Below, one piece after another: positions 41,770 through 44,212 of a stretch of 64,000 bases of DNA. The position numbers and the translations under genes were made by a program. Source of the DNA: Candidatus Methylopumilus universalis (lineage in GTDB: Bacteria; Pseudomonadota; Gammaproteobacteria; Burkholderiales; Methylophilaceae); contig NZ_CP040968.1 in NCBI RefSeq assembly GCF_006365315.1, positions 682,001 to 746,000 on the forward strand. Reading direction: 5' to 3'. A model generated the notes under the pieces. It worked only from the letters and a program-made list of their open reading frames with translations, was not told the origin of the DNA and ran no database searches. The stretch's first letter is position 1, and each line of letters opens with the position of its first letter.

Positions 41770-41810
41770 TTAAATAATTAAGGGCGCATAAAGCGCCCTT
41801 AATTATTTAA
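41770..41810 (-). terminator. Strong hairpin terminator after hpi
   Basis: Two perfectly complementary 18-base arms (41770-41787 and 41793-41810), with a GGGCGC/GCGCCC core and AT-rich flanks, enclose a 5-base loop. The stem's own AT arms supply the U-rich 3' side, and the structure works on both strands. It lies between the hpi stop and the pabB start, so it should end the hps-hpi transcript. It may also limit antisense transcription entering hpi. Confidence 0.78.
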
Positions 41811-41824
41811 TGCCTTATAGAAAT

Positions 41825-42358
41825 TTACTCTAGGTTTGCGTGAATTGCGCGCATACCTTCTTCAGTCAATCCTTTAGCATGAATTAATTCTGAAATAACT
41901 GCTTCAAGGTAGATCAATGTAGATAATTCAAATGAAGTGCCCATAGGCATTCCTTGGGTAAGACCAAAAGAATCATCATTACCAATTTGTACAGTTAAAT
42001 CAGCCATATCCGACATAGGTGATTTATTTTTCATTGAAACAACAACAATCTTAGCGCCTTTTGATTTAGCAGTTTCAAGAAGCGGCAAAAGTGTTTTTGT
42101 GCCCCCAGAACCTGAAATCACTAGAAATAGATCGCCTGATTTAATTGCTGGCGTCACAATTTCGCCCACCATATTAACCTGATAGCCACTATGCACGAGA
42201 CGCATTGCAAAAAAGCGTGAAACAAGTCCTGATCGTCCAGCGCCACCTACAAAAATACGACCTGCTTCATCTATAAGCTTAAGAAGCTTAGCCGCATTAC
42301 TTTGCTCAGTCACTGCTAAAACGCTTGAAATTTTATCTAATAGTAATTTTTGATGCAT
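41825..42358 (-). CDS. hxlB: 6-phospho-3-hexuloisomerase
   Basis: Hpi isomerises D-arabino-3-hexulose 6-phosphate to fructose 6-phosphate, the second RuMP-cycle reaction. The 177-residue SIS-domain protein shows 'IFVGGAGRSGLVSRFFAMRLVHSGY' near residues 34-58, 'LFLVISGSGGTKTLLPLLETAK' near 80-100, and the C-terminal 'TSFELSTLIYLEAVISELI'. The length is typical of stand-alone hexuloisomerases. It lies 102 bases downstream of hps with an intrinsic terminator in the gap, so its expression depends on read-through or on a weak promoter. A ribosome site AAGGG lies 9 bases upstream of ATG. Confidence 0.95.
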   Translation of the reverse strand: MHQKLLLDKISSVLAVTEQSNAAKLLKLIDEAGRIFVGGAGRSGLVSRFFAMRLVHSGYQVNMVGEIVTPAIKSGDLFLVISGSGGTKTLLPLLETAKSKGAKIVVVSMKNKSPMSDMADLTVQIGNDDSFGLTQGMPMGTSFELSTLIYLEAVISELIHAKGLTEEGMRAIHANLE

Positions 42359-42393
42359 GTTGAACCCTTTTTATTTAAAAATAAACAGCCTAT

Positions 42394-42425
42394 AAAAAAA
42401 ATCCCGACTCATTGCTAAGTCGGGA
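42394..42425 (-). terminator. Intrinsic terminator between hps and hpi
   Basis: On the minus strand an 8-base stem, TCCCGACT with AGTCGGGA and an 8-base loop, is followed by eight Ts (42401-42394). This is a canonical Rho-independent terminator. It lies 36 bases after the hps stop and 36 bases before the hpi start, inside what is otherwise an obvious operon, and so should lower hpi mRNA relative to hps. Confidence 0.85.
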
Positions 42426-42460
42426 CTTGATTTAGTTCATCAATAATTGTTTCTTAACAA

Positions 42461-43093
42461 TTATCCATGAGCAATTTTTGTGATTTCTGCAGCAGCAGCA
42501 GCTGGATCAGCAGCGCCGTAAATTGCAGCACCAGCAACGATAATAGATGCACCAGCATCTTTAACTTGCTGAGTCGTAGCAGCTTTAACACCACCAGCAA
42601 CTGAGATTTTAACGCCAGTTTTTAAACCAGCAATCATAGCTAAGTCAGCAAAAGGAGTGTGACCAGCAGCTTGTGCATCAAGACCAGTGTGAACACCGAT
42701 AATTTGAACGCCTGCAGCAACACATTCTTTTGTTAAAGCTTCTTTGTTTGCAACGTTGATCATGTCAACTTGAACTTCTTTACCATATTTCTTAGCAGCA
42801 GCAACTACGCCTTTGATTGTAGCAATGCCTGAAGCGCCAAGAACTGTACAGATGTCTGCGCCAGCTTTGTAGAATGGCTCAGACTCATATTCACCTGCAT
42901 CCATTGTTTTTAAGTCAACAAGGATTTGGTTCTTTGGGAATTTTGCTTTTAATGTTTCAAGAAGCTTGATACCGTTATGCTTAATGCATGGTGTACCAAT
43001 TTCAAGGATGTCTACGTGTGGAGCAACTTTAGCTGCTAATGCAACTGTTGCGTCAAAATCTAATGAATCTAATGCCATTTGTGTTAAAGCCAT
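42461..43093 (-). CDS. hxlA: 3-hexulose-6-phosphate synthase
   Basis: Hps condenses formaldehyde with ribulose 5-phosphate to give hexulose 6-phosphate, the carbon-fixing step of the RuMP cycle. The 210-residue protein is an orotidine-monophosphate-decarboxylase-fold enzyme. Its metal and substrate residues lie in 'DILEIGTPCIKHNG' (residues 29-42) and 'ILVDLKTMDAGEYE' (57-70), and phosphate binding lies in 'ISVAGGVKAAT' near 165. GGAG lies 9 bases before ATG. A near-consensus promoter lies about 80 bases upstream. The coding sequence is rich in Ala and GC-ending codons compared with neighbours, as expected for a very highly expressed gene. Confidence 0.97.
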   Translation of the reverse strand: MALTQMALDSLDFDATVALAAKVAPHVDILEIGTPCIKHNGIKLLETLKAKFPKNQILVDLKTMDAGEYESEPFYKAGADICTVLGASGIATIKGVVAAAKKYGKEVQVDMINVANKEALTKECVAAGVQIIGVHTGLDAQAAGHTPFADLAMIAGLKTGVKISVAGGVKAATTQQVKDAGASIIVAGAAIYGAADPAAAAAEITKIAHG

Positions 43094-43175: not shown

Positions 43176-43204
43176 ATCATATAGGGCTAATCATTTTGTG
43201 TCAA
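43176..43204 (-). promoter_or_regulatory. Near-consensus sigma-70 promoter of hps
   Basis: On the minus strand TTGACA (43204-43199) and TATGAT (43181-43176) are separated by exactly 17 bases. The -35 is a perfect match and the -10 has five of six. Transcription would begin near 43169, giving a leader of about 75 nt. It is the best-matching housekeeping promoter I found in the window and fits the very high expression expected of hexulose phosphate synthase. Confidence 0.8.
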
Positions 43205-43261: not shown

Positions 43262-44212
43262 TTATAGCTTTTCGTTTAAAGCTGTTTCGAGTTTGTTTTG
43301 GTCCACTACGAAACCACGAATACCTTCTGAAAGTTTTTCAGTTGCCATCGCATCTTCATTCAATGCAAAGCGGAATTCATCCTCAGTCATTTTAGCTGGG
43401 GCTGATTTTGTAGCGCCGCCGTCTTTGAGAAGTCTTGGTAAATCTCCCTGGGTTGCTTCAAGCTCCTGAAGTAAATTTGGTGCAATTGTTAAACGATCAC
43501 AACCAGCTAGTGCTGTAATTTCACCGATATTTCTAAAGGAAGCGCCCATCACAACTGTTTTATATCCATGCTCTTTATAGTAAGCATAAATTTTACGAAC
43601 TGATATAACGCCTGGATCTTCTTCAGATGTATATGTATTTCCAGTTTTAGCTTTATACCAATCAAGGATACGACCCACGAATGGAGAAATAAGGAATACG
43701 CCAGCTTCAGCGCACGCACGCGCTTGGCCAAAACCAAATAGAAGCGTTAAGTTACAGTTGATACCTTCTTTTTCTAAGATTTCACCTGCTTTAATGCCTT
43801 CCCATGTAGATGCCAATTTAATAAGCACGCGATCTTTTTTAACGCCAGCTTCATCATAAAGGCCTATTAATTTTCTACCTTTTTTAACCATTGCATCAAT
43901 ATTAAATGATAAACGTGCATCTACTTCGGTAGAAATGCGGCCAGGAATATGTTTTAGGATCTCAAGTCCTACAAGAACAGCCAGCTTATCAGCGGCATCT
44001 TCAACTTGCTGAGCTTTATTGCTACTTTTTGATTTTGCATAAGCAATAGCTTCTTTAATCATTGGCTCGCATTGAGGAAGCGTACTTGCCTTTAAAAGTA
44101 AAGATGGGTTAGTCGTAGCATCGTAAGGTTTTACTGTTTTAATTGCTTCCACGTCACCAGTATCTGCAACGATCGTTGTCATGCCTTTTAATTGTTCTAA
44201 TAATGTTGCCAT
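43262..44212 (-). CDS. tal: Transaldolase
   Basis: Transaldolase exchanges dihydroxyacetone units between sugar phosphates, regenerating ribulose 5-phosphate in the RuMP cycle. The 316-residue TalB-type protein has the Schiff-base Lys in '[23 protein letters not shown]', described at residues 129-150. '[12 protein letters not shown]' lies near 29-40, and '[32 protein letters not shown]' follows the active site. On the minus strand a TATAAT -10 (44263-44258) lies about 45 bases upstream of ATG, with no good -35. It precedes hps with a 168-base gap, so the two are co-oriented but can be transcribed separately. Confidence 0.97.

Follow-up and report, generated by a model that had tools for sequence, protein, structure and literature searches.

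A strong, conserved intrinsic terminator predicted between hps and hpi in the Methylophilaceae

HPS fixes formaldehyde and HPI removes the product of HPS, and synthetic methylotrophs usually express the two genes together. What would a transcription terminator do between hps and hpi, and how would hpi be transcribed behind it? This question is raised by a locus of Candidatus Methylopumilus universalis, studied here in a window, i.e. the whole stretch of DNA analysed, of 64 kb (positions 682001-746000 of a single-contig genome of 1.275 Mb). In this genome hps is present in one copy. Both genes lie on the minus strand as co-directional adjacent cistrons separated by a gap of 102 nt, and presumably form a single transcription unit. 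The preliminary description of this DNA had named the two genes and a strong promoter upstream of hps; the gene identities are confirmed by scores above the curated NCBIfam cut-offs, and the promoter is close to consensus. The features, in the direction of transcription, are:

43176-43204, minus strand: hps promoter, TTGACA-17-TATGAT, near-consensus (11/12 matches)
42461-43093, minus strand: hps, 3-hexulose-6-phosphate synthase, 210 aa (TIGR03128, 239.8 bits against a cut-off of 200)
42437-42470, minus strand: AU-rich stem across the hps stop codon (inner stem 42442-42465), from folding, mean z -4.4 in its own genus
42399-42428, minus strand: terminator hairpin including its A/G-U extensions
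42402-42425, minus strand: core of this hairpin, 8-bp perfect stem, GNRA loop
42394-42401, minus strand: U8 tract of the hps terminator
42359-42393, minus strand: spacer and hpi leader, 35 nt, without recognisable promoter
about 42365-42370, minus strand: AAAGGG, likely ribosome-binding site of hpi
41825-42358, minus strand: hpi, 6-phospho-3-hexuloisomerase, 177 aa (TIGR03127, 188 bits against a cut-off of 160)
41777-41803, minus strand: terminator 3' of hpi, end of the hps-hpi unit, with a U-tract weaker than that of the hps terminator

A perfect 8-bp stem followed by eight Ts had been described on the coding strand between the two genes, and this is what the minus strand contains from 42425 to 42394 (TCCCGACT-TAGCAATG-AGTCGGGA-TTTTTTTT), with five G-C pairs among the eight of the core. 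The flanks, given earlier as 36 bases on each side, are 35 nt long (42426-42460 and 42359-42393). The stem continues inward through a U-G and an A-U pair to a GCAA tetraloop and outward through A/G-U pairs, reaching 13 pairs in total. Folding of the hps-hpi gap yields -26 kcal/mol (z = -4.1), a value matched by 0/200 shuffles. The terminator score d is 43 for the hps terminator, against 3.6 for the one that follows hpi in this genome. Strong terminators are found in 3/11 co-directional gaps of at least 20 nt in the window, and the one between hps and hpi has the top score. A chance hairpin is ruled out by the z-score, by this top rank in the window and by the 122/123 relatives in which a hairpin and T-run are also present. 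By every sequence test, on hairpin, U-tract and signs of selection, the element is an intrinsic terminator.

The gene hpi was located in 170/187 Methylophilaceae genomes, and hps and hpi are adjacent in 124/124 genomes where both could be located. The gene that follows hpi varies among relatives (it is pabB-like here, which is common to genera g1 and g2 only). The conserved adjacency of the pair while the next gene changes fits a retained transcriptional coupling. Upstream of hps, tal (43262-44212 in the window) is found in 113/117 genomes with enough flanking sequence.

We gathered the hps-hpi gaps of the 124 genomes, which belong to 22 genera, and left out one that is interrupted by a run of N (L004). 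A hairpin plus T-rich tract is present in 122 of the 123 intact gaps and in 21/22 genera, and the T-run accompanies the hairpin in all 122 hairpin-bearing gaps. Comparison of the same gap in relatives had been suggested earlier as a check, and its outcome strongly favours a selected terminator. The sole genus without hairpin and T-run is g8, represented by a gap of 157 nt (L124, G046). Other apparent exceptions were discarded, being the Ns of L004 and, in g4, g13 and g21, another kind of hairpin, which a simple scan overlooks on account of its interior loops. At least four hairpin versions unrelated in sequence occupy this position:

version A: CCCGAC-GNRA-GTCGGG, in most genera
version B: TCCACCA..TGGTGGA, with interior loops, in g4, g5, g13, g14 and g21
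version C: CGAGCCCTC, in g24
version D: CCGACCC, in g12 and g17

The occurrence of unrelated versions at one place indicates that the function was kept while the sequence was replaced. Within version A we found compensatory changes, the outer pair being U-A, A-U, C-G or G-C and the pair of the third C being C-G, U-G or U-A, while a mismatch is tolerated at one inner pair; with few exceptions among the genomes, the loop is a GNRA tetraloop (GCAA, GTAA, GAAA, GCGA). The sequence of the core is also more constant between genera than that of the hpi terminator in the same genomes (identity 0.84 versus 0.56 without g2 and g23, 0.79 versus 0.55 with them), as it is within genera (0.81 versus 0.68). 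This constancy across genera was unexpected. Seven paralogous hps genes located elsewhere in the relatives also have strong terminators at their ends, but the sequences of these are unrelated. A dispersed repeat or mobile terminator is ruled out, since the CCCGAC..GTCGGG hairpin occurs once in the 1.275-Mb genome and 59 genomes each have a single copy of the exact version-A core, always beside hpi. Judged from its conservation and predicted strength, the hps-hpi terminator is strong and selectively maintained. In one g18 genome (L045), a palindromic insert of about 160 bp, with arms of approximately CTCTATTTATTC and GAATAAATAGAG, lies between the T-run and hpi.

Outside the family, where the pairs that we compared come mostly from Methylococcales, 76 adjacent hps-hpi pairs have 1-19 nt between the genes and six further pairs are fused. 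No terminator between hps and hpi was found in these 76 pairs and six fusions, which leave too little room for one. Methylococcales thus carry the same enzymes in the same order, but with the genes packed or fused and without the terminator. From this spacing, the terminator between hps and hpi is specific to Methylophilaceae among the taxa tested.

The preliminary description did not mention a second structure, which spans the hps stop codon and is conserved, with covariation between coding and UTR bases in relatives. In its own genus it is one long stem, the counterpart of a three-way junction that the last part of hps forms with the first part of the UTR in the related genera g7, g9, g15, g18 and g19. 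In helix P1, GCTCA from the last hps codons pairs with TGAGC in the UTR, P2 includes the hps stop codon, and P3 is TCAATAA-loop-TTATTGA. In an alignment of 26 sequences (A1), 91.5% of cells pair versus at most 47% in slid controls, a count that is conservative for five g15 sequences, which pair P1 in another register; the covariation score is 0.129 versus at most 0.070 in the controls. In five sequences GTTCA/TGAAC replaces GCTCA/TGAGC, so that a codon change from Ala to Val is matched in the UTR. In P2, GGTT/AACC alternates with GCTT/AAGC, this being the least certain helix, with 75% of cells paired. A covariance model built without the own genus (R1) matches the window at 42396-42475 (E 4e-7). 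A second, weaker match of R1 in the same genome (G000:C1:424531-424607, plus strand, 35 bits, E 3e-4) is perhaps another terminator of similar shape. No family of Rfam 15 reaches its gathering score in the hps-hpi gap, where the matches are below threshold and at chance level; STnc240 and NsiR1 were rejected as known families for this region, as their matches are far under the gathering scores. A structure over the stop codon, adjoining the terminator, was not expected.

Around an element with this observed anatomy, conservation, uniqueness, covariation and family specificity, we would draw a two-gene unit consisting of promoter, hps, terminator, hpi and terminator. Most polymerases starting at the hps promoter would stop at the first terminator and leave an abundant monocistronic hps mRNA, its 3' end capped by the stable GNRA hairpin and the upstream structure over the stop codon. 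In the own genus, the minority of polymerases reading through would transcribe hpi, and this minority would keep the ratio of hps to hpi high. In g2, where an extended -10 promoter adjoins this terminator, transcription of hpi would start anew from that promoter. Thus, a strong and maintained terminator behind hps, with read-through supplying hpi in the own genus and re-initiation in g2, is the explanation that we favour and regard as reasonably probable. With the terminator in place, hps message is probably made in large excess over hpi message; we infer that it acts in the cell, that its efficiency is incomplete and that the mRNA ratio of hps to hpi follows. For the own genus, read-through, which the preliminary description had proposed, is the best, if unproven, reading.

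The evidence on promoters bears directly on this point. In the own genome, no sigma-70-like site with at least 9/12 matches lies between the hps promoter and hpi, and downstream of the T-run no -10 does better than shuffles (p = 0.77). The same holds for the own genus as a whole and for most other genera. The picture is different in g2, where an extended -10 (TGGTATGAT, TGATATGAT, TGNTATNAT; e.g. L014, L018, L054) touches the T-run in 22/23 genomes and beats shuffles with a mean p of 0.07, and a weaker form appears in 6/7 genomes of g16. We take g1 to be Methylopumilus-like and g2 to be OM43-like, a presumably marine sister genus. With an extended -10 joined to the T-run, hpi in g2 is probably transcribed from its own promoter, and the read-through reading would not be general to the family. 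Consequently, the earlier statement that hpi lacks a good promoter stands for the own genus, as far as its sequence can tell, and fails for the family as a whole. A terminator variant joined to a promoter was unexpected, and the contrast between g1 and g2, with read-through in one and a promoter attached to the terminator in the other, offers a way to test the question.

It could also be that hps and hpi are two independent units, with a nearly complete stop after hps and a promoter of hpi that overlaps the T-run or lies just after it. Besides the arrangement in g2 and g16, the high predicted strength of the terminator speaks for this, and the d value of 43, which suggests very efficient termination and so little remaining read-through, counts against our own reading. 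But two units would call for a -10 that does not rise above shuffles in the own genus and most other genera, many of which leave just 28-45 nt between the start of the T-run and the ATG, and the adjacency of the two genes is kept in all genomes tested. We give this explanation a minor, though still appreciable, chance. A promoter of hpi may also be unlike sigma-70, overlap the hairpin or lie inside hps.

The constancy of the hairpin sequence, above that of other terminators of the same genomes, together with the unrelated terminators of the paralogous hps genes and the covariation of coding with UTR bases, would also suit a 3' UTR of hps that serves as a regulatory RNA, either in place or after its release, or a terminator that is itself regulated. 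This is improbable, since nothing in Rfam matches at gathering level, no alternative antiterminator pairing could be established, and the hairpin is replaced in the genera with versions B, C and D. As a speculation of low probability, the hps 3' UTR might be an undescribed structured RNA, composed of the stop-codon junction or stem and the GNRA terminator, with regulation acting on its efficiency or on a fragment that it releases; if true, the formaldehyde-fixing flux would be adjusted where the hps mRNA ends and not at the hps promoter. Least probable to us is a post-transcriptional origin of the difference, in which read-through is substantial and the structures protect the hps 3' end after processing or trimming so that hps outlives hpi, for which selective RNA processing and stabilisation have precedents (PMC4423207, PMC10667835) and to which the second conserved structure and a GNRA loop and stem conserved beyond the need of termination would lend themselves, but which leaves the U-tract, needless for stabilisation, retained in every hairpin-bearing gap.

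Returning to partial termination as the favoured explanation, internal terminators that set the ratio of cistrons are already known, and hps-hpi would be a further case. In Ralstonia eutropha, transcription of the cbb operon partly stops behind the carbon-fixing genes, so that the later cistrons are expressed less; the enzyme concerned is also one of carbon entry, as is HPS, and no sequence homology is claimed. In E. coli, internal partial terminators stand behind the highly expressed first cistron in rpsU-dnaG and rplL-rpoB. In ABC-importer operons of cellulolytic clostridia, internal intrinsic terminators establish high upstream and low downstream transcripts according to their termination efficiency (PMC9045158). 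There, as in hps-hpi, the stem-loop is directly 3' of the first, abundant cistron, but it has fewer Us and a longer GC stem than canonical terminators, while the U8 of hps-hpi is canonical and the genes are two consecutive metabolic enzymes. In Methanococcus maripaludis, termination between cistrons (ioTTS) lowers the downstream product and its removal affects fitness (PMC10450193). The likeness lies in termination between cistrons of one operon; the archaeal sites are not a bacterial stem with U-tract and were demonstrated by Term-seq and mutation, whereas the hps-hpi terminator is predicted from sequence. In the open literature that we searched, no terminator between hps and hpi and no hps:hpi mRNA ratio was found described for Methylophilaceae. 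A terminator kept family-wide, where other groups pack or fuse the genes, suggests that an unequal hps:hpi ratio is a selected state in Methylophilaceae. In this sense, it would be a compact natural part for setting an unequal ratio of two enzymes.

High expression of hps has been published for two organisms, Methylotenera mobilis, where the gene is among the most expressed (PMC3728764), and an OM43 isolate, whose cells contain 8-12 HPS transcripts each (PMC5120137); the text of these two papers gives no figure for the hpi transcript. Codon bias is stronger in hps than in hpi in 111/114 genomes (effective codons 32.2 versus 42.2), in line with more expression of hps than of hpi. Methylococcales, without the terminator, have the same bias (40.1 versus 51.1), so codon bias was rejected as proof of the mechanism. 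An excess of HPS seems to be general among the methylotroph groups compared, and Methylophilaceae may achieve it in another way. In Bacillus methanolicus, which shares both enzymes and their gene order, hps and phi are co-transcribed, with 12,308 (hps) and 8,086 (phi) in the abundance table (PMC4342826). Additionally, one outgroup genome (G435) appears to carry three identical tandem hps-hpi copies about 5.2 kb apart (L131, L137, L139) and a fourth, fused copy elsewhere (L141/L150), and its hpi is identical to that of Methylotuvimicrobium buryatense 5G.
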